Below, piece by piece: positions 12,956 through 23,403 of a DNA stretch of 50,577 nucleotides. The stretch's first letter is position 1. Every line of letters begins with the position of its first letter. The notes beneath the pieces were generated by a model that saw only the letters and a program-made list of their open reading frames with translations, was not told the DNA's origin and did not search any database. The position numbers and the translations under genes were made by a program. Source of the DNA: Bacilli bacterium (GTDB lineage: Bacteria > Bacillota > Bacilli > Paenibacillales > KCTC-25726); contig DASVDB010000176.1 of assembly GCA_036381315.1 (NCBI GenBank), forward strand, positions 1 through 50,577, in the 5' to 3' direction.

Positions 12956-13828
12956 ATGCGTCTTGCTGATCTGAAATCGCTCGTGAAAGCCGGCGTTCTG
13001 CTGGCCAATGTGCTGCCTGTTGTTTCCGGCTTCTGGCTGGCGCTTTGGTATACGGATCAATCCCTGGCAGATAGCTGGGGGTTGTGCTTGCTGACGATTG
13101 CAGGGAGCACGTTCGTTATGGCCGGCGCGTTGATCTTGAATAATTGGTATGACGTTGACATCGATACGATTATGGCCAGGACGAAGCGTCGACCGACGGT
13201 TACGGGAAACATTCCCCTGAAAACGGTGCTTTTGCTGGGAATTTTCTTCACCGCGCTCGGTCTTTGCCTGCTCGCATTTTTTACGACTGTCGAAGCCGCC
13301 GCTTATGCGCTTATCGGCTGGATCGCCTATGTTTTGTTATACACCATGTGGTCCAAACGGCGGTTTACCGCCAACACTTTGATCGGAAGCGTCTCGGGAG
13401 CGGTCACGCCGTTAATCGGATGGTCCGCGGTAGAATCCAGCTTTCACGACATTCCGATCGTCCTGTTTTTGATTCTGTTTATTTGGCAAATGCCGCATGC
13501 GTACGCCACCGCGATGAAGAACTTCGATGATTATAAAGCCGCGGGCGTAGTGTTGCTGCCTGTGGTGCACGGGTTTGCCAAAACAAAAAAGCATATCGCC
13601 GCATATATCGCATGCCTTATTCCGCTGCCTTTTTTCTTGCAAGCGTTTGGCACCGCTTTTATCGTGATATGCACCGTGTTGAACGTTGTTTGGCTGGCGC
13701 TTGGCATTGGAGGCTTCTATGCGAAGGATGACAAAAAGTGGACGCGGGCAATGTTTCTCTATTCGGTTAACTACATCACCATTTTGTTTATTCTGATGAT
13801 TGTCGTCACGCTGCCGATGTTCGCTTAA
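12956..13828 (+). CDS. ctaB: CtaB, heme O synthase (protoheme IX farnesyltransferase)
   Basis: The only clear plus-strand gene. It is a 290-residue UbiA-family prenyltransferase with about nine membrane helices. The Asp-rich substrate motif is in LNNWYDVDIDTIMARTKRRP (residues 61-80), the form specific to heme O synthases. It adds a farnesyl group to heme B, making heme O, the precursor of heme A. It is convergent with the Sco and oxidase-like cluster and shares a TTAA with it: the last four bases hold the stop codons of both ctaB and the CtaG-like gene. Its presence suggests that some heme-copper enzyme in the cell uses heme O or A. It need not be the one encoded next door. Confidence 0.88.
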   Translation: MRLADLKSLVKAGVLLANVLPVVSGFWLALWYTDQSLADSWGLCLLTIAGSTFVMAGALILNNWYDVDIDTIMARTKRRPTVTGNIPLKTVLLLGIFFTALGLCLLAFFTTVEAAAYALIGWIAYVLLYTMWSKRRFTANTLIGSVSGAVTPLIGWSAVESSFHDIPIVLFLILFIWQMPHAYATAMKNFDDYKAAGVVLLPVVHGFAKTKKHIAAYIACLIPLPFFLQAFGTAFIVICTVLNVVWLALGIGGFYAKDDKKWTRAMFLYSVNYITILFILMIVVTLPMFA

Positions 13829-14421
13829 TCGGAATTTGCGCAATCTTGTTCCGGCTTTGCCTCTGTGAATTCGGACTGGTCAGTGAAAAGCAAATAGATC
13901 AGAAAGATAATCATGCACACGGCAACGAACAACGTGCCGAAACCGAGTTCTTTTTGTTCATAGAACTGGTAATTGTTGCACAATTGGTTCTTTGCGCCGA
14001 GATAAATCCCGGCCACAGCCAGAAAAATAAAGATGAACACGCCATACACGACATTTTTCCCGACTGAGCCGAGTTTCCGCCAGCTGTCGCGCAAGGGTAC
14101 TCCAGCGAGTAACGTCAGGCTTAAAAATTTGAACCACTCGACCGCGGGCGACGCGATCGCTTCATCCATCAGCCGCGGAATGAGCATCCAGTAACCGGTG
14201 ATTATCGTAAACAGCAAAATGCCCGGCACGCCGTTCGTATTCCATTTGGCAAAAAAACGCGGAAATTTGAGCTGAAAAAAACGGCCAATGAGAAATCCGC
14301 AAACGATAAACAGCGGCATTTGCATGTGCATGTGAAAAATCATCAGCGACTCGAGGAGATTTGCCACCGGCGGCAGCGCCAAAAAAACAAACAGCAAAAA
14401 TCCGTACAATGCCTGTTTCAT
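13825..14421 (-). CDS. Six-helix membrane protein, CtaG-like (putative oxidase assembly factor)
   Basis: A 198-residue protein with about six hydrophobic helices (roughly 4-23, 33-50, 65-83, 97-111, 122-142, 162-180) and a short acidic tail. At the start of helix II is LMIFHMHMQMPLFIV, a His/Met cluster like that of CtaG-type copper assembly proteins, although the overall similarity is weak. It is four bases after sco and in the same transcript as heme-copper reductase copy B. A role in copper delivery or assembly is inferred from context and from the His/Met cluster. I could not assign it to a named family with certainty. Confidence 0.6.
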   Translation of the reverse strand: MKQALYGFLLFVFLALPPVANLLESLMIFHMHMQMPLFIVCGFLIGRFFQLKFPRFFAKWNTNGVPGILLFTIITGYWMLIPRLMDEAIASPAVEWFKFLSLTLLAGVPLRDSWRKLGSVGKNVVYGVFIFIFLAVAGIYLGAKNQLCNNYQFYEQKELGFGTLFVAVCMIIFLIYLLFTDQSEFTEAKPEQDCANSD

Positions 14422-14425
14422 CGCC

Positions 14426-15058
14426 TCAACCCCCGCTTCCCCGCAACGCGTTCATAACCGCATCCAAGGTCTCTTCCACTTTCGTATAATTCATTGCTTG
14501 CAGCAAACGCCCGTCTTTGCCGATCAGATAAAAGGATGTGCTGTGCGTAAACTCGCCGTTGCCGTCCGGTATGACGGTGACGCCATATTGGTCCAGCACC
14601 CGCTTCAGTTCCGCCGCGTCATTGATGCGCGCCATTCGCCATGTTTCGCCGTCGCTGCCGAATGCGCTCCCGTATTTTGCGAGCACGCTCGGGGTGTCGC
14701 GCGCAGGGTCGAAACTGACGCTCAAAAATTCAATCTCTTTGCCCAGATAATGTTTGGGGACGGAACGATAAATTTTAGCCATATTCAGCTCGATTGCCGG
14801 GCAAACGTCCTTGCAAGTCGTATACATGAACGAAAGCAGCACATATTTGCCTTTGGCGAAACGGTCAAGACGAAATTCGCGCCCCTTGCCGTCCTGCAGC
14901 GTTACGGCGGGCAAGTGCGGCCTGCTGTGCAAAAGTTCATATTGAACCGCGCTCTTGGTGGTATAGGCGTGAAACCCGTCCGTGCTTGCATAAAACAAGG
15001 CAAAGCCAAACAAAAGAATGGTTGTGATAGCGATTGTTTGCCGCCAATTGTTACGCAT
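14426..15058 (-). CDS. Sco1/SenC-family copper chaperone
   Basis: A 210-residue membrane-anchored thioredoxin-fold protein of the Sco family, which loads the CuA centre of heme-copper enzymes outside the membrane. An N-terminal helix (about 8-24) anchors it. The copper ligands are present: Cys82 and Cys86 in YTTCKDVCPAIELNMAKIY, and His172 in GEFTHSTSFYLIGKDGRLL. I chose the ATG at 15058 (MRNNWRQTIAITTILL) with GGGAGG upstream; the longer frame adds a non-signal-like stretch. It lies between copy B of the CuA-type reductase and the CtaG-like gene, so its likely client is the CuA site of those subunits II. Confidence 0.9.
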   Translation of the reverse strand: MRNNWRQTIAITTILLFGFALFYASTDGFHAYTTKSAVQYELLHSRPHLPAVTLQDGKGREFRLDRFAKGKYVLLSFMYTTCKDVCPAIELNMAKIYRSVPKHYLGKEIEFLSVSFDPARDTPSVLAKYGSAFGSDGETWRMARINDAAELKRVLDQYGVTVIPDGNGEFTHSTSFYLIGKDGRLLQAMNYTKVEETLDAVMNALRGSGG

Positions 15059-15178
15059 CACAGGACACCTCCCAATAGCAGGATAGCCCGCGCAAGAACG
15101 GGCCATACAGGTTATTTTGCGGAGGGCAGCCATTGCCGGTCCTTTGCAATGACTACCCTGCCGCGCTTTTGCCGCCGC

Positions 15179-16861
15179 TTACCAGGTGCGAATAGGAGGC
15201 GATCCGGGCGGCGCGTTGACGATAAAGTCGACAACCGGAACGGCGTAAGCCATGCCGATATCCAGCAGCATCAACAAAATCCACAATCCCCAACGTTCCA
15301 GCCACATCGGCGTTGTGGCGATATCGTCCGCCTCGGCAATCGGGAATTCGGTGTTCCCTTTCGGAGAACGGAACATCATATGATAGACGGCGCATACCTG
15401 AATGATTACGGCGGTGAGCAAAAAGATCGCGCCGATGCCCATGACAAGTTCGTAAGGATCCCAGCTTGCCGCCACTTCGCTGCCGTTATAGGTCGTATAG
15501 GCGGTTCTGCGCGGGTCGCCCAACAAGCCGACCCAGTGTTGCGAGCCCGACATCAAGGTCATACCGAATGTCCAGACGATCGTTTGGATAACGCCGACCT
15601 TGTTCATGGCAGGCGTAAGCACCCGCCCCGTAAGATAAGGAATCAGCCAATAGCAGATGCCGAAGAAAGTAAGAACGGCGGTCATGGCTACGGTCAAATG
15701 GAAGTGTCCGACTACCCACAGCGTATTATGAATGACCTGATCCATCTGGTTGCTGGTGTTGATGATACCGCCGGCACCGCCGGGAATAAAGGCGATCATC
15801 GCGATCATCGGCGCCAGGAACCGGACGTCGCCCCATGGCAGCTTTTTATACCAGCCAAGCAGCCCTTTGCCGCCATTTTTTCTGCCGACACGTTCGAATA
15901 CGGCGAACATCGCAAAGCAGGTCATCAAGGAAGGAAACGCCACGGACATGCTCATAAACGCATGCAAATATTTCACGCCTGTGGAAATCGCCGGGTCGAC
16001 GATTTGGTGGTGAAAGCCGCCGGGCAGGTTCAAGATCACCAATAAAATGACGACGACGCGCGCCAATTTGTCGCTGAAGATTTTTCCGCCGATAATTTTC
16101 GGCACGGCCACATACCACGCCGATACCGCGACGAAATACCAGACATTCACCACGGTATGGCCGAACGTCCAGAAGAACGTCCGGTTCAGCATTACGTTGA
16201 CCGTCGGGACGATGCCCATCGACCAAGGAATGAGCGTTACCAATTCAATCATCAACGGAATGCTGGCAAAAAACCAGAGCACGAAAATGCCCATCGCAAA
16301 AAAGGCAAACAACGGCGTCGGCTGTCCGCGGTGCGTTTTCCGCCAATAATGGTAGTTGATGAAAACGCCTGCGCTGACCGACCACAATCCGAGCACAACC
16401 AAAACGAGCCCGATATAAAAGTACGGCGACGCGGCCAGCGGCGGATAAAAGGTGTACAACACGGACGCATCGCCCATGGCGACGGTAGTGACGACGATTG
16501 CGACGCCTACCACCATCAACCCGAAGCCGATCCAGGCCATTCTGCGGACTTGCGGCAAAATGCCTCCGTACACATGGGACAAGCCGGCATATATATATCC
16601 GATTACAAACGTCGTCGTGAAGACAAGCAGCATCAATATACCGTGCGCCGTCAAGACCTGATAGTAATTCAGCCATGATGGCAGCGGCATGATACCGGAA
16701 CGGTCCAGTCCTTGCAACAGGCCAAAAATTCCGCCGAGCAGCAAAGTGGCAAACGAAACTGCGATGTAGGTCAGCGACAATTGCGCATCCTGCACCTTCG
16801 CGCCCAGCACTTTCATGGATTTTTGCCTGAGAACCTGCGTTTTATTTAATGCGAGTTCCAT
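15179..16861 (-). CDS. B-family heme-copper reductase subunit I, copy B (ba3-like; NO reductase-like active site)
   Basis: A 560-residue catalytic subunit with about 13 membrane helices, most like the b(o/a)3 (B-family) oxidases. Heme and CuB ligands are all present: His73 (TAHGILML), His235 (FWTFGHTVVNVWY), His284 and His285 (LPGGFHHQIVDP), and His386 and His388 (VVGHFHLTVAM). The position four after the first CuB histidine, Tyr237 of Thermus ba3 (GHPIVYFW), is Asn239 here, and the usual Pro is Thr236. Tyr242 is seven residues after the histidine. Losing the cross-linked tyrosine is typical of NO reductases, so an NO-reducing role is possible; ctaB and sco nearby also fit an O2 reductase. 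It lies 33 bases after its subunit II gene. Copy A is a close paralogue of exactly the same length. Confidence 0.85.
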   Translation of the reverse strand: MELALNKTQVLRQKSMKVLGAKVQDAQLSLTYIAVSFATLLLGGIFGLLQGLDRSGIMPLPSWLNYYQVLTAHGILMLLVFTTTFVIGYIYAGLSHVYGGILPQVRRMAWIGFGLMVVGVAIVVTTVAMGDASVLYTFYPPLAASPYFYIGLVLVVLGLWSVSAGVFINYHYWRKTHRGQPTPLFAFFAMGIFVLWFFASIPLMIELVTLIPWSMGIVPTVNVMLNRTFFWTFGHTVVNVWYFVAVSAWYVAVPKIIGGKIFSDKLARVVVILLVILNLPGGFHHQIVDPAISTGVKYLHAFMSMSVAFPSLMTCFAMFAVFERVGRKNGGKGLLGWYKKLPWGDVRFLAPMIAMIAFIPGGAGGIINTSNQMDQVIHNTLWVVGHFHLTVAMTAVLTFFGICYWLIPYLTGRVLTPAMNKVGVIQTIVWTFGMTLMSGSQHWVGLLGDPRRTAYTTYNGSEVAASWDPYELVMGIGAIFLLTAVIIQVCAVYHMMFRSPKGNTEFPIAEADDIATTPMWLERWGLWILLMLLDIGMAYAVPVVDFIVNAPPGSPPIRTW

Positions 16862-16894
16862 TTTCCATCCCTCCTAAAGATTCCCGCAGGAAAA

Positions 16895-17356
16895 CTACTT
16901 CACCGTTATCGCAGTTGACATGAATTGATGCCCGCCGCCGCAATATTCGTTGCATAATACCAAATACTTGCCAGGTTTGTCGAACGTATGAGAGATTTGT
17001 TGAATTTGCCCCGGCATTACCATCGCATTGATATTGGTTTTGGCAATTTCAAAGCCGTGAACGACGTCTTTGGATGTCAGCTTAAAGGTCACTTTCGCTC
17101 CGGCAGGAATCTCCAAATTGGTTGGATTAAACTGGAACGCTTGCAAAGTCATGACGACTTCATACTCGTTATCCCCGATCTTGTTGATCCCCGGTTTGTC
17201 GAACGGCGGCGTCTGATCCACTTTTTGCGGATCAATCGTTTCCACATGGCTTGGAGGCCCCATCGCCAACACAAATGTTTGGTATCCGGCTATTAACAAA
17301 AACAACACGAGAACACCAAAGCTGACCGTAAGCCAGATTCGTTCCGATTTGTGCAT
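16895..17356 (-). CDS. CuA-binding subunit II, copy B
   Basis: A 153-residue protein with one N-terminal helix (about 9-31) and an extracytoplasmic cupredoxin domain. All CuA ligands are present: His100 in DVVHGFEIAKTNINAMVMPG, then Cys135, Glu137, Cys139, His143 and Met146 in LCNEYCGGGHQFM. It accepts electrons, probably from a membrane-bound cytochrome c, and passes them to subunit I. The short length and single helix match subunit II of ba3 oxidases. B-family enzymes such as Thermus ba3 have Gln where this one has Glu137. It follows the small subunit IIa by 12 bases. Confidence 0.9.
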   Translation of the reverse strand: MHKSERIWLTVSFGVLVLFLLIAGYQTFVLAMGPPSHVETIDPQKVDQTPPFDKPGINKIGDNEYEVVMTLQAFQFNPTNLEIPAGAKVTFKLTSKDVVHGFEIAKTNINAMVMPGQIQQISHTFDKPGKYLVLCNEYCGGGHQFMSTAITVK

Positions 17357-17368
17357 AAAAACCCCTCC

Positions 17369-17521
17369 TTAAACTCTGGATAAATATAGTAAAAAGACGG
17401 CCGTCCAAGATACGATGATGAAAGCCGTCACGAGACTTGCCGAAACAACCGCGCCTTTTAACGAGTGCTCTTCATCTTTGCCGTCAAGTTTTTTAGGCGC
17501 GTCAGTTTTTACCGATTCCAT
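17369..17521 (-). CDS. Small single-helix subunit (subunit IIa-like), copy B
   Basis: A 50-residue protein reading MESVKTDAPKKLDGKDEEHS then LKGAVVSASLVTAFIIVSWT and AVFLLYLSRV. An acidic cytoplasmic start is followed by one transmembrane helix. It is the counterpart of the single-helix subunit IIa of ba3 oxidases, which fills the place of a missing helix of subunit II. GGGAGGG precedes the ATG by eight bases. The same protein is encoded in copy A (20203-20355) at the same position; the two share the SLVTAFII and WTAVFLLYLSR blocks. It is the first gene of its operon, 63 bases after the FNR-like box. Confidence 0.85.
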   Translation of the reverse strand: MESVKTDAPKKLDGKDEEHSLKGAVVSASLVTAFIIVSWTAVFLLYLSRV

Positions 17522-17556
17522 TTTAATAACCCTCCCACTTTAATACGTTTTTTTAA

Positions 17557-17599
17557 ACAATAACTTGGAAGGGGTAGGCCAAATGTGATTCTAATCACA
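17557..17599 (-). promoter_or_regulatory. FNR/CRP-type class II promoter of reductase operon B
   Basis: TGTGATTCTAATCACA (17584-17599) is a perfect TGTGA-N6-TCACA box, the FNR consensus of bacilli. On the minus strand the -10 hexamer TATTGT (17557-17562) follows 21 bases after the box. The box centre (17591.5) would lie near -41.5, the class II position. No -35 is recognisable. The same box core, hexamer and spacing occur before copy A. Confidence 0.75.
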
Positions 17600-17614
17600 A
17601 CTTAAAGCCATTAT

Positions 17615-17625
17615 CGTTACAACAT
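17615..17625 (-). promoter_or_regulatory. Second conserved element upstream of the FNR-like box, copy B
   Basis: ATGTTGTAACG on the minus strand, 16 bases upstream of the FNR-like box. The identical 11-mer lies 17 bases upstream of the box of copy A (20450-20460), although the sequence between differs. It could be a second activator site. The binding factor is unknown. Confidence 0.45.
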
Positions 17626-17718
17626 CGTGAACAATTAGAACCATTTTATTTAATTGGGAAAATTGTCGTAATTGAACGAAGTTATACTCTGATTTGCTTA
17701 GGCGGGCGCGCTGCCCGG

Positions 17719-17913
17719 CAAATTTAATTGGATTTCGTCCAACTAATTTCGTTGAAACTACCGTTAAGATGCGATTAGTTGGATTTCATCCAACTATTTT
17801 ATTTAAAAAAAGCCAATATGCGGGAAATCGCCTGAATTAGATGGATGAAATCCATTTAACTTCTTAAAAACAGCATATTTCGGTAAATTTAGTTGTACAA
17901 AATCCAACTAAAA
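17719..17913. repeat. Palindromic intergenic repeat, family C, four units
   Basis: Four units at about 17719, 17771, 17833 and 17884. The best is TTAGTTGGATTTCATCCAAC followed by TA, a palindrome of TTGGAT and ATCCAA around TTC. The third is rearranged (ATGGATGAAATCCATTTAAC). The spacers hold AT-rich linkers with short GC clusters such as AATATGCGGGAAATCGCC. The array lies between the terminator of reductase operon A and the promoter of operon B, in the 506-base gap 17522-18027, where I see no gene. Confidence 0.8.
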
Positions 17914-17918
17914 GAAAA

Positions 17919-17948
17919 GACCGCACGGCAAAAATATGCCGGACGGTC
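17919..17948 (-). terminator. Rho-independent terminator of reductase operon A
   Basis: GACCGCACGGCA (17919-17930) pairs with TGCCGGACGGTC (17937-17948), with one internal mismatch, around AAAATA. On the minus strand it is followed by TTTTCTTTT. It ends the copy A transcript about 80 bases after subunit I and shows that copy B depends on its own promoter. Confidence 0.85.
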
Positions 17949-18027
17949 CAGAAAGCGCGCACCGTGCACACCCACTGCTTGCACGCGGATGGCTATCGGC
18001 GATTCCAATTCATCGCAATGGCCGCCA

Positions 18028-19710
18028 TTACCATGTGCGGATGGGCGGCGACCCGGGCGGCGCGTTGACGATAAAGTCGACTGCCGGAACCGCATATGCC
18101 ATGCCGATCACGAGCAACATGATGACGATCCACAACCCCCAACGTTCCATCCACATCGGCGTTGATTTTTCATCGTCCGCGTGCGCGACCGGAAATTCGG
18201 TGTTACCCTTCGGCGCGCGGAACATCAAATGGAAGACGTTGTACACCTGCAGCAAAAGGCCGATCAGCAAAATTACCGCGCCAATCCCCATGACGAGCTC
18301 GTAAGGGTCCCAGCTTGCCGCCACTTCGCTGCCGTTGTAGGTCGTATAGGCGGTTCTGCGCGGATCGCCCGACAAGCCGGCCAAATGCTGCGAACCGGAC
18401 AGCAAAATCATGCCGAATGTCCATATCAGGGTCGCCGCCACGCCGGCCTTGTTCATTTTTGGCGTCAGCACCCGCCCCGTCAAATGCGGGATCAGCCAAT
18501 AGCAGATGCCAATGAAGGTGACGGCGGCTGTCATGGCCACGGTCAAGTGGAAGTGCCCGACCACCCAGAGCGTATTGTGGACAACCTGGTCCAATTGAAA
18601 GCTGGTATTGATGATTCCGCCCGCTCCGCCGGGAATGAAGGAAATCATCCCGATCATCGGCGCCAGGAAGCGGACATCGCCCCACGGCAGCTTCTTGAAC
18701 CAGCCGAAAAGCCCTTTGCCGCCATTTTTTCTGCCGACGCGTTCGAATACGGCAAACATGGCGAACACCGTCATCAGCGACGGAAAGGCGACGGCCATGC
18801 TCATATACGCGTGCAAATATTTTACGCCGTTCGACAAAGCGGGGTCGATGATCATGTGGTGAAATCCGCCCGGCAAATTCAGCACAACCAACAGGATGAC
18901 GACGACGCGCGCCAATTTGTCGCTGAAGATTTTCCCGCCGATAATTTTCGGCACGGCGACATACCAGGCCGATACCGCGACGAAATACCAGACGTTCACC
19001 ACGGTATGGCCAAACGTCCAAAACAGCATGCGGCTAAACATCACGTTTATTGTCGGCAAAATGCCCATCGACCATGGTATGAGCGTCAAAACTTCGACCG
19101 CCACGGGAATGCTGGCAAAAAACCAGAGCACGAAGATGCCCATGGCAAAATAGGCGAATAACGGCGTCGGCTGCCCGCGATGCAATTTTCGCCAATACCG
19201 GTAGTTGATAAAGACGCCTGCGCTGCACGACCATAATCCGAGCACGACCAATACAAGCCCGATATAGAAGTACGGCGATGCGGCAAGCGGCGGATAAAAG
19301 GTGTACAACACGGACGCGTCGCCCATCGCCACGGTTGTCATAACCATGACGACGCCTGCAACCATCAGTCCAAAGCCGATCCAACCCAATCGGCGCACTT
19401 TTGGCAAAAGGCCGTCCAATGTATAGGACATACCGGCATAAATATATCCGACAACAAACGTTGATGTGAACACAAGCAACATCAGGATTCCGTGCGCCGT
19501 CAGCACCTGATAGTAACTGAGCCACGCCGGCAGCGGCATGATGCCGGAACGATCCAGCCCTTGCAAAAGCCCCATTATTCCGCCGACAAACAACGCCGCA
19601 AACGATACGGATAAATAAGACAATGACAGTTTCGCATCCTGCAGTTTTACGCCCAGCACTTTTTTCACAGCTTGCTGTGTCGAAGTTGTTGGATTCAATA
19701 CAAGTTCCAT
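18028..19710 (-). CDS. B-family heme-copper reductase subunit I, copy A (ba3-like; NO reductase-like active site)
   Basis: A 560-residue close paralogue of the subunit I at 15179-16861, collinear over its whole length. The heme and CuB ligands are the same (His73, His235, His284, His285, His386, His388). The helix-VI motif is again FWTFGHTVVNVWY, so the ba3 tyrosine is Asn239 here too. One difference close to the metal site is that the residue after the His-His pair is Met286, against Gln286 in copy B (the ba3 state). The two differ mainly near the N-terminus (residues 7-21) and in the last third. The gene starts 12 bases after subunit II and ends at a strong terminator. The exact substrate, O2 or NO, is not settled by sequence. 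Confidence 0.85.
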   Translation of the reverse strand: MELVLNPTTSTQQAVKKVLGVKLQDAKLSLSYLSVSFAALFVGGIMGLLQGLDRSGIMPLPAWLSYYQVLTAHGILMLLVFTSTFVVGYIYAGMSYTLDGLLPKVRRLGWIGFGLMVAGVVMVMTTVAMGDASVLYTFYPPLAASPYFYIGLVLVVLGLWSCSAGVFINYRYWRKLHRGQPTPLFAYFAMGIFVLWFFASIPVAVEVLTLIPWSMGILPTINVMFSRMLFWTFGHTVVNVWYFVAVSAWYVAVPKIIGGKIFSDKLARVVVILLVVLNLPGGFHHMIIDPALSNGVKYLHAYMSMAVAFPSLMTVFAMFAVFERVGRKNGGKGLFGWFKKLPWGDVRFLAPMIGMISFIPGGAGGIINTSFQLDQVVHNTLWVVGHFHLTVAMTAAVTFIGICYWLIPHLTGRVLTPKMNKAGVAATLIWTFGMILLSGSQHLAGLSGDPRRTAYTTYNGSEVAASWDPYELVMGIGAVILLIGLLLQVYNVFHLMFRAPKGNTEFPVAHADDEKSTPMWMERWGLWIVIMLLVIGMAYAVPAVDFIVNAPPGSPPIRTW

Positions 19711-19722
19711 TCGCTCGCCTCC

Positions 19723-20190
19723 TTACTTGACAGTAATCGCTGCCGACATAAATTGATGGCCGCCGCCGCAATACTCATTGCATAAAACCAAATACTTGCC
19801 GGGTTTATCAAACGTTTGCGTAATTTGTTGAATTTGGCCGGGCATCACCATTGCGTTGATGTTCGTTTTGGCGACCTCAAAGCCGTGCACGACGTCTTTC
19901 GAAGTCAGTTTGAACGTAACTTTCGCGCCTGCGGGAATCTCAATATCGCCGGGAGTAAACATAAACGCTTCCAAAGTCATGACGACTTCATATTCATTTT
20001 CGCCGATTTTCTTCACACCGGGATTGTCAAATGGCGCCGTTTGCCCGACTTTTTGCGGATCGATCGTTTCTCTGTGGCTGGGCGGACTCATCGCAAGCTG
20101 AACGGTCAAATATCCGCCGATCAACAAAAACAATACGAGAAAAGCCGTAGTGACGGTAAGCCAAATCTCTTCCGATCTGTGCATGCGCAT
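19723..20190 (-). CDS. CuA-binding subunit II, copy A
   Basis: A 155-residue protein closely matching subunit II of copy B: one N-terminal helix, then a cupredoxin domain with the DVVHGFEVAKTNINAMVMPG histidine and the complete CuA loop LCNEYCGGGHQFMSAAITVK. A GGGGGG ribosome-binding site precedes two possible starts, ATG at 20190 (six bases) and ATG at 20184. The second gives the MHRSEEIWLTV start collinear with copy B (MHKSERIWLTV). It is 12 bases after subunit IIa and 12 bases before subunit I, so the three are translated as one unit. Confidence 0.9.
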   Translation of the reverse strand: MRMHRSEEIWLTVTTAFLVLFLLIGGYLTVQLAMSPPSHRETIDPQKVGQTAPFDNPGVKKIGENEYEVVMTLEAFMFTPGDIEIPAGAKVTFKLTSKDVVHGFEVAKTNINAMVMPGQIQQITQTFDKPGKYLVLCNEYCGGGHQFMSAAITVK

Positions 20191-20202: not shown

Positions 20203-20355
20203 TTACGCTCTGGACAAATAGAGCAAAAAGACCGCCGTCCAAGCGATGATGATAAATGCGGTAACCAAACTAGACGATACAATCGTACCTTTAAGGGTGT
20301 GATCCTCCTCACTTGCGTCATGCTTTTTTTCGTAATCGATTTCGTGCGTGTTCAT
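20203..20355 (-). CDS. Small single-helix subunit (subunit IIa-like), copy A
   Basis: A 50-residue protein from the ATG at 20355: MNTHEIDYEKKHDASEEDHT, then LKGTIVSSSLVTAFIIIAWT and AVFLLYLSRA. AGGAGG stands just upstream. It has the same length, operon position and transmembrane helix as copy B, while the acidic N-terminal 20 residues have diverged. It is probably the IIa helix subunit of the enzyme. The 13 extra codons upstream to 20394 overlap the predicted -10 hexamer of the operon and are rejected. Confidence 0.85.
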   Translation of the reverse strand: MNTHEIDYEKKHDASEEDHTLKGTIVSSSLVTAFIIIAWTAVFLLYLSRA

Positions 20356-20390: not shown

Positions 20391-20433
20391 ACAATATCCG
20401 TTTGCGAGGCTTGTGAAAGTGAGAATAATCACA
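20391..20433 (-). promoter_or_regulatory. FNR/CRP-type class II promoter of reductase operon A
   Basis: AGTGAGAATAATCACA (20418-20433) keeps the GTGA-N6-TCAC core of the FNR box. The -10 hexamer TATTGT (20391-20396) follows after 21 bases on the minus strand. The box is 63 bases from the first start codon, exactly as in copy B, and the hexamer is identical. The conserved ATGTTGTAACG element lies at 20450-20460. Confidence 0.7.
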
Positions 20434-20475: not shown

Positions 20476-23295
20476 TTATTTCAATACATTGTTCAGCATT
20501 TCGGCAAATTCCGCCCGGGAAGCGGGGCGATTCGGCATAAACGAACCGTCGGCGTAACCGGAAATCCAGCCCTTTTGCTTCATTTCCGCCAACATATCGG
20601 CTCCCCAACTGTTCGCCGTAATATCGCGAAACGGCGCCTTGCCGGTATGAATGCCTTTCAACTTCATAGCCGCGCCGATCATCACAGCCATTTCGCGGCG
20701 CGTGATCTTTTGGTTCGGCCGAAACGTCCGGTCCGGATAGCCGCTTATAATCCCCGCTTTAGCCGCTGCCGAAATATCCGCGGAAGCCCAGTGCGTGCTT
20801 TTCACATCGTTGAATACGAGCGTGCTGTCTTTTTTCAGCTTAAAAGCGCGGACGATCGCCGTTACCGCCTCCGCCCGGGTAATTCCCTGGTCGGGCCGGA
20901 ACGTGTAATCCGCATACCCGATTAAAATCTGTTTGTTGCGCAATGCCACAATGGCGTCTTTTGCCCAGCTGTTGTCGATATCCTTGTAACCGGCCGTCAA
21001 TTCGTGCGCCGTGACCTTGAAATGATAATACTGGGAAAAGAATGGTTCGTCCGCCGTAAGGCGAACATAATAAGTCCCCTTGGGCAACAATTTTTCAAAA
21101 CTGAGAGTCGTATTGCCCAGCGTGTTCACATTGATTGCCACTTGTTTCTGATTTGCGTCATACAAAGTCATGGACATGATGCGGTCAGCCGGAATATCAT
21201 AGAGAACCGTTTTCATTAACTTCTTGCCGTCCGCCCGGAACATGAACCAATCGGCGTCGTCCGCTTGGTGAATCACTCCTTCATAGACCGTATTCGGCGC
21301 GGTTGCCACCGCCTGGTAGAATTTATTATTGGGTTCGTTCGGATCGAGCAGTTTTTTGCTGAACGAAATATGCAGCGTGTATTGCCCGCGCACCGGCAAC
21401 GATTTTTCATCGCCGGAGATCACATTTTGGACGGCGATATAATATTGGCCCGGCGTGACATCAATCGAATCAATGCTTTCCTCCAAACCGTCCTGATTCC
21501 AATCTTTCGTGAAGGAAGCTTCATTTTTTCGGGAAAATGTGAGCGCCAAATCCATCCGCGCCGTATCCGTCGTAACATTCATGCTTAAAATTCCGGATTC
21601 GCGCACATTAACCATATACCAGTCCTGGTCATCCGTGTGGTCGAATGTGCCCACAATATCGGCAGAGCTATCCGGCAGCGTGTATGCCATATACTGCCTG
21701 TCATTGTTTTCAAACGGATCGGCGCCGATCGTAAATTGCGCATTCAGGCTGTAAGCAAACGATTTCGCCGCGCTTGGCGACGACACATTCAATTTGAGAT
21801 AACGGCGGCCCTTTTTTGCCTTGATATGAATCGTTTTGGTCAAAACGTCCGAATACGTTTTCGCGCGATCCGTCGCCGTGGCGTAATAAGACAGCGCCAC
21901 TTTTGCTGACACGCCATTCATGGCATGCAATTGTATTGCGAGATCCCCGTCATACGGGACATCAACGTAAAACCAATCGGCATCGTCCGGCCCGGTAAAT
22001 TCGCCATAAAGCAAACTGTCGACCGGCAGCGGTTTTGCCAGCGTAATCGTACCGTTGTTTTCATACATGTCTTTGCGATAGGGCGTGTTTAACGCCCTGT
22101 CGGCCCGCAAAAGCCCGTATCCGGTGAAAGGATCCCATCCTTTCGCCGCGACATCTTCCGCAGTCTGCCGAATCATGTTGCGAATTTCGTAAGGTTCCAT
22201 ATCGGGATATTTCGACCACAATAAAGCCGCTATCCCGGCAACTTGCGGGGCAGCCATCGATGTGCCCTGATTGTTGGCGTAACCTCCGCCAAGGGCAGTG
22301 GTCCTGACAGTCCAGGGAGCGACCACATCCAGTTCGGGGCCGTAATTGGACTCCGGTTCGACAAGATTATCGGGAGCAATGCCCCCTACCGCCAATACAG
22401 GCGGGTAGGCGGCGGGAAATTTAACGTCGCGGCTTTCGTTGCCGGAAGCGGCAACAAGCAGCACTTCATGGTCTTCGGCATATTTTATGACATCCCGCAT
22501 ATAAGCGGAATCGCGGTTCATGCCGACCGACAACACCACGATTTTCGCTCCATGGTCCACCGCGTAAGTGATTCCTTCCCCCAATTTATCTTCCGTGCCG
22601 TTGCCGTTTGCTTCCAGCGCCTTGATCGGCATAATTTTGGTTTTCCAGACGATGCCCGCCACACCGCGCTTGTTGTTGGCGATAGCGCCGATCACGCCGG
22701 CAACGTTGGTGCCGTGCCCGTTATCGTCCTGCGGCGGCTTTTCCGGATTTACGAGATTGGCGCCCGGAACCAGTTTGTCTTTCAAATCAGGGTGTTGCAA
22801 ATCCACTCCCGTATCCACGATGGCAATCGTGATTGTTCGCCAAAACTCGGTATGGTTCCATGCGTTTTCCATATGAATTTGCCGCAAATATGTTTGCTTG
22901 GGAAATTCCGGGTCGTTCGGGACGACGCTTTTGTTTGCGGCAGCCTTTACCTGTTGATCGGCCTGTATATACTGAATCTCCGGCCACGATTGAAGCTGCG
23001 CCAACCACCGCTTCAGGTTTACGCCTTTTTTCGGGCGCGCAACCGTAATGCCGAATTTGCCTTGTTCATCCAATATGTCGCTGTTCTGCCGAAATGCCGC
23101 CGGCGGCGTTTGCTTCCATTTGATGATCCATAAGCCGGTCTCCGGCTTCGCCAACGATTGACCGGAATTGGCCGCAGCCGAATTAGCCGGTGCGTTCGCC
23201 GCGGTCAGTGTCCTGCCGGCGAAGTCGGCAGTTCCCGCAATACCGGTTGCAGTCAAAGCTATTGCCATGATGATATGCAGCATCGTTTTTACCAT
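20476..23295 (-). CDS. Secreted subtilisin-family (S8) serine protease with PPC repeats and three SLH domains
   Basis: A protein of about 939 residues made as a preproprotein. It has a signal peptide (about 1-25, MVKTMLHIIMAIALTATGIA), a pro-region (about 50-120) and a subtilase domain (about 135-410). The catalytic residues are Asp161 (AIVDTGVDLQHPDLK), His194 (DDNGHGTNVAGVIG) and Ser346 (NNQGTSMAAPQVAGIAALLW), with Asn286 of the oxyanion hole (LLVAASGNES). Three beta-rich PPC-type domains follow, each with a DADWF or DQDWY start. Three SLH domains end the protein (each with GYADYTFRP or GYPDRTFRP type motifs) and attach it to pyruvylated wall polymer; the pyruvyl transferase csaB starts at the left end of the window. 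I use the ATG at 23295, seven bases after GGGAAG. Confidence 0.92.
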   Translation of the reverse strand: MVKTMLHIIMAIALTATGIAGTADFAGRTLTAANAPANSAAANSGQSLAKPETGLWIIKWKQTPPAAFRQNSDILDEQGKFGITVARPKKGVNLKRWLAQLQSWPEIQYIQADQQVKAAANKSVVPNDPEFPKQTYLRQIHMENAWNHTEFWRTITIAIVDTGVDLQHPDLKDKLVPGANLVNPEKPPQDDNGHGTNVAGVIGAIANNKRGVAGIVWKTKIMPIKALEANGNGTEDKLGEGITYAVDHGAKIVVLSVGMNRDSAYMRDVIKYAEDHEVLLVAASGNESRDVKFPAAYPPVLAVGGIAPDNLVEPESNYGPELDVVAPWTVRTTALGGGYANNQGTSMAAPQVAGIAALLWSKYPDMEPYEIRNMIRQTAEDVAAKGWDPFTGYGLLRADRALNTPYRKDMYENNGTITLAKPLPVDSLLYGEFTGPDDADWFYVDVPYDGDLAIQLHAMNGVSAKVALSYYATATDRAKTYSDVLTKTIHIKAKKGRRYLKLNVSSPSAAKSFAYSLNAQFTIGADPFENNDRQYMAYTLPDSSADIVGTFDHTDDQDWYMVNVRESGILSMNVTTDTARMDLALTFSRKNEASFTKDWNQDGLEESIDSIDVTPGQYYIAVQNVISGDEKSLPVRGQYTLHISFSKKLLDPNEPNNKFYQAVATAPNTVYEGVIHQADDADWFMFRADGKKLMKTVLYDIPADRIMSMTLYDANQKQVAINVNTLGNTTLSFEKLLPKGTYYVRLTADEPFFSQYYHFKVTAHELTAGYKDIDNSWAKDAIVALRNKQILIGYADYTFRPDQGITRAEAVTAIVRAFKLKKDSTLVFNDVKSTHWASADISAAAKAGIISGYPDRTFRPNQKITRREMAVMIGAAMKLKGIHTGKAPFRDITANSWGADMLAEMKQKGWISGYADGSFMPNRPASRAEFAEMLNNVLK

Positions 23296-23403
23296 TGCCA
23301 ATCTTCCCTTTGTATGTTTGCCACCGATTAAATTACAGTTCCTATTAATTTCTATACTTCAAGTAGATTCCCTTCCGGCAATTTCTGCCGCAATGCAAAA
23401 AGA

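Follow-up and report, generated by a model that had tools for sequence, protein, structure and literature searches.

Gene content of the locus

The window, i.e. the whole stretch of 50,577 nt analysed here, encodes two tandem cassettes on the minus strand, referred to as copies A and B. In brief, each cassette is complete and consists of a small peptide, a CuA subunit II and a subunit I. The subunit I genes, located at 15179..16861 (copy A) and 18028..19710 (copy B), both on the minus strand, were assigned to the bNOR type by ORF analysis, alignment and tree. Their products are 560 aa each and are identical at 457 of 560 positions (82%). The subunits II, encoded on the minus strand at 16895..17356 (copy A) and 19723..20190 (copy B), are 153 and 155 aa long and have one transmembrane helix followed by a CuA cupredoxin domain (CNEYCGGGHQFM); the CuA motif CxExCxxxHxxM is present in both. 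The small peptides (17369..17521 in copy A and 20203..20355 in copy B, minus strand) are 50 aa, IIa-like, with a single transmembrane segment. These peptides were absent from the preliminary description of this DNA, and subunit II and the peptide of copy B lie just beyond the range that it covered.

Downstream of copy A we found a gene for an SCO1/SenC copper chaperone (14426..15133, minus strand), whose true start may be internal, and a gene for a multi-transmembrane protein (13825..14421, minus strand). The latter has no Pfam family and matches the 6-TM protein described for bNOR clusters in the literature. The convergent neighbour is ctaB, encoding heme O synthase (12956..13828, plus strand). 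No other copy was detected in the genome, and this ctaB thus probably serves general heme O/A supply; ctaA was found on another contig. Directly upstream of the cassette pair (20476-23301) is an ORF of 941 aa, subtilase-like and with C-terminal SLH-like repeats. Rfam gave zero matches within the window.

Active site of subunit I

Both subunits I contain FWTFGHTVVNVWYF, with the motif form GHTVVN-WY. The sequences were aligned with that of the Thermus thermophilus ba3 oxidase (1XME), and the alignment is free of gaps around this helix VI motif. H233, Y237, W239 and L240 of the Thermus enzyme correspond to H235, N239, W241 and Y242, and the ligands H72, H233, H282, H283, H384 and H386 to H73, H235, H284, H285, H386 and H388. 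The asparagine in place of the tyrosine and the full set of six heme and CuB histidine ligands, both reported in the preliminary description, are thus confirmed. Since N239 occupies the position of Tyr237, the pair lacks the cross-linked helix VI tyrosine of the ba3-type (B family) O2 reductases.

Asn is found at this position in all 87 rows of the clade to which the pair belongs, and Tyr in all 35 ba3 oxidases compared, so Asn239 is not a chance substitution. Further positions switch along with it in the clade (Thermus numbering): Pro234 to Thr, Leu240 to Tyr, Val279 to Gly and Thr315 to Ala, the Thr315 position being Ser in most bacilli. Regarding the K path, the equivalent of Tyr244 is Val, Thr or Ile in the clade, and the equivalents of Tyr248, Ser309 and Thr312 are retained. 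In a search with NCBIfam, even the top-scoring oxidase models stayed well short of their cut-offs, and no NOR name came up.

Relatives and phylogeny

Heylen & Keltjens 2012 (PMC3475470) identified the genes of the purified menaquinol/cytochrome c NO reductase of Bacillus azotoformans. In their description of this enzyme, which they named qCuANOR type I, Asn takes the place of the cross-linked Tyr, subunit II carries CuA, and the genes lie with those for a small membrane peptide, SCO and a 6-TM protein. The cluster of Neobacillus bataviensis, including an adjoining ctaB, was assigned to the same type (PMC3475470). CuANOR, or qCuANOR type I, has since been renamed bNOR and was counted in many Bacillota (PMC11388526).

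The GTDB genome collection, scanned with the clade alignment, yielded 362 relatives, and 80 named loci among them were retained. The gene order peptide-II-I-SCO-6TM recurs in nearly all of these. With tblastn the small peptide itself was recovered from roughly half of the loci; in the rest it was probably missed, being short and divergent. The preliminary description had taken the nearby ctaB and sco as arguing against an NO role. This argument was rejected: SCO belongs to the published bNOR cluster, ctaB lies nearby in about 20 of the 80 loci, N. bataviensis LMG 21833 (locus L089) included, and the ctaB of the window is the single copy found in a genome that encodes a caa3-like oxidase as well.

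A quick maximum-likelihood search with 69 rows gave a tree with long branches for Thermus and sNOR. In it, every bNOR-like subunit I with Asn falls on one side of a branch with an SH-aLRT of 100, apart from the Tyr-bearing oxidases. Both copies and N. bataviensis LMG 21833 are inside this all-Asn clade. Copies A and B are each other's nearest relatives (SH-aLRT 100), and the nearest rows to them are Lentibacillus and Virgibacillus. The bNOR of B. azotoformans was not among the fetched loci, and the link to the purified enzyme runs via N. bataviensis and the text of PMC3475470. The preliminary description had left the choice between the CuANOR group and a new one; the asparagine, the gene order and the clade shared with the qCuANOR type I of N. 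bataviensis decide for the former.

Two loci (L025:1501-3126 and L026:1501-3120) form a deeper Asn-bearing branch, sister to bNOR in the tree and 53-54% identical. They carry GHTLVNIWM, with Met at the place of Tyr242, and GHLH instead of GHFH, and possibly represent an undescribed subgroup. Two Bacillus-like bNOR clusters (L074 and L105) come from records titled Arthrobacter and Pseudomonas, which are probably mislabelled or contaminated assemblies.

When 61 taxonomically close relatives were examined, bNOR turned up in the window's own genome only; the best matches in the others are Tyr-bearing oxidases. The distribution in the order is thus patchy, and the genes may have come from donors resembling Bacillaceae.

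Promoters

A Crp/Fnr-type palindrome, TGTGATTAGAATCACA, is located in the promoter of copy A (17584..17599, minus strand), with TATTGT 21 nt downstream (17557-17562). The promoter of copy B has the corresponding site TGTGATTATTCTCACT (20418..20433, minus strand), again with TATTGT 21 nt downstream (20391-20396). Each palindrome lies 243 nt before the start of subunit II and 78 nt before that of the peptide, in the layout of a class II activator. A further match to TGTGATCCTCCTCACT at 20298-20313, inside the coding sequence of peptide B, is on the other strand, lacks the -10 spacing and is probably due to chance.

A box matching at least 8 of 10 positions, with a -10-like hexamer at 20-23 nt, was present in all 79 relatives' loci tested and in 2 of 79 shuffled sequences. 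With at least 9 of 10 positions the counts were 60 of 79 and zero. In the window's own genome the layout precedes bNOR A and B, qNOR, scdA, sNOR and nosZ; the stretches retrieved for caa3 and ba3 did not show it. As a control, 20 of 34 ba3 oxidases of the relatives carry a Crp/Fnr promoter at 9/10. We therefore rejected the promoter as proof of an NO role; it indicates low-oxygen control rather than NO specificity. From these promoters we infer expression at low O2 under a Crp/Fnr regulator. In our literature search a promoter of this kind was nowhere described for bNOR, and its being shared across the bNOR clade is a new, if modest, point.

Tandem duplication

The promoter, the peptide, subunit II and subunit I are doubled, and the SCO and 6-TM genes are single. 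We suggest that both cassettes arose by duplication of the promoter and three genes in the lineage of the window or in its donor, and that the one downstream SCO/6-TM pair would serve both in common. No second subunit I was present in the fetched flanks (up to 6 kb) of the 80 relatives' loci. When up to three candidates were scored in each of 399 genomes of the class, the window's own genome alone had two matches in the high-identity group (59% or more). The tandem duplication is the sole unusual trait of the bNOR described here, and it is lineage-specific.

The gap between the cassettes (17726-17909) holds three imperfect copies of the inverted repeat AGTTGGAY-NNN-RTCCAACT, where 0.01 were expected from shuffles. 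This is possibly a dispersed intergenic repeat of the genome.

Predicted nitrogen oxide reduction in the genome

The genome encodes six heme-copper subunits I: those of a caa3-like oxidase, a Tyr-bearing ba3, the two bNORs, a qNOR and an sNOR. The qNOR gene is located on contig C147, beside a gene for ScdA-type iron-sulfur repair. The sNOR cluster (L010:4845-11773, contig C119) encodes a CuA subunit II, a 494 aa subunit I with GHIIAN, an SCO-like protein and a multi-transmembrane protein. A Crp/Fnr regulator and a VWA/NorD-like ORF without Pfam match are also found in this cluster. A clade II NosZ is encoded, and narG gave three matches above the cut-off. The predicted set is thus four NO reductases (bNOR twice, sNOR and qNOR) together with NosZ and NarG. 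A search of the genome for NirK gave nothing above the cut-off, and a search for NirS did not find cytochrome d1. That neither NO-forming reductase was detected counts against the assignment of the pair to bNOR.

Probable function of the pair

The asparagine with the six histidines, the CuA site, the gene cluster and the clade with a named member are all those of bNOR. We conclude that the window very probably encodes two tandem, complete bNOR cassettes, each most likely reducing NO to N2O. The asparagine is the already published signature of bNOR, and the mechanism is not new.

One alternative is that the two proteins are O2-reducing ba3-type oxidases, working either without the tyrosine or with Tyr242 as a stand-in, the latter a role for Tyr242 that the preliminary description had considered. 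The fold and the overall sequence are indeed those of Thermus ba3: the predicted model (mean pLDDT 80.5, pTM 0.85) matches it with a TM of 0.86 and a Z of 41-42, which confirms the fold and not the substrate. The Crp/Fnr promoter, being common to many ba3 oxidases, is also compatible with such a role, and Tyr242 is nearly invariant, occurring in 86 of 87 clade rows. However, residues 235, 239 and 242 are all held in one uninterrupted predicted helix (223-256), in which Tyr242 is 7 residues, or about 10 Å of helix rise, from His235. It aligns to Leu240 of Thermus, and is replaced by Phe in one clade member and by Met in the sister branch. A replacement cross-link to His235 was rejected on these grounds, and Tyr242 is unlikely to substitute for the missing tyrosine. 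Further, the tree keeps the clade apart from the oxidases that carry the tyrosine, and a purified NO reductase of the same type is reported to have Asn (PMC3475470). The genome, moreover, already encodes two other oxidases, one a Tyr-bearing ba3 and one caa3-like. We consider O2 reduction by the pair highly improbable.

A refinement of the bNOR assignment is that the copies have diverged in function, e.g. into high-affinity NO detoxification and NO respiration, or towards another substrate. Each copy has its own promoter, and at 82% identity the 18% divergence implies time to diverge. On the other hand, the layout of the two promoters is the same, and the copies agree at every active-site and clade-defining residue that was checked. 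The subunits I have a dN of 0.12 against a dS of 0.82 (NG86), which suggests that purifying selection acts on each of them. Such divergence appears unlikely to us. We see a similarly small chance that the two bNORs have separate roles, differing for example in their affinity for NO, their tolerance of O2 or their electron donor, and that the organism lives on NO produced by other organisms.

Sequence, gene order, residues, phylogeny and promoter sites were observed directly; activity, cofactors, donors and electrogenicity are proposed after the characterised relative, with high confidence for NO reductase function. CuA would receive electrons from cytochrome c and/or menaquinol, and the low-spin heme would hand them on to the active site, made up of the high-spin heme and FeB or CuB. 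In this site Asn239 replaces the redox tyrosine of the O2 reductases. Protons would probably come from the cytoplasm via the remaining K path (Y250, S311, T314). PMC5826923 relays a report that NO reduction by CuANOR is electrogenic.

With four encoded NO reductases, tandem copies among them, and no NO-forming nitrite reductase detected, the organism is a candidate NO scavenger. General databases annotate such genes as cytochrome c oxidase subunits, a case in KEGG being noted in PMC11388526, and NO reduction in this genome would therefore be overlooked.

Comparison with known enzymes

The pair is most similar to the bNOR of B. azotoformans (BAZO_06394-06409) and N. bataviensis (BABA_00215-00235), sharing the asparagine, the six histidines, the small peptide, the SCO and 6-TM neighbours and a CuA subunit II with a near-identical N terminus (MHKSERIWLT here, MHKSEKIWLT in the purified B. 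azotoformans enzyme). As in N. bataviensis, ctaB is nearby, and subunit I is about 62% identical to that of this species. The two known systems have one cassette, whereas the window has two in tandem.

The sNOR, or qCuANOR type II, likewise has a CuA subunit II, an asparagine in place of the tyrosine and an SCO neighbour, but its subunit I is shorter (494 aa, GHIIAN) and its subunit II has a longer N-terminal membrane part, with two transmembrane helices. The pair is not of this type: its subunit I of 560 aa matches Thermus ba3 end to end, and its subunits II are only 153 and 155 aa. With the O2 reductase of T. thermophilus the pair has in common the fold, the six ligands, the CuA subunit II and part of the K path, whereas Tyr237 is replaced by Asn and Pro234 by Thr, and Tyr244 of the K path and Thr315 are lost. 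The qNOR has the same proposed reaction, NO to N2O, but is a single fused NorB with a cytochrome-c-like domain and without CuA.
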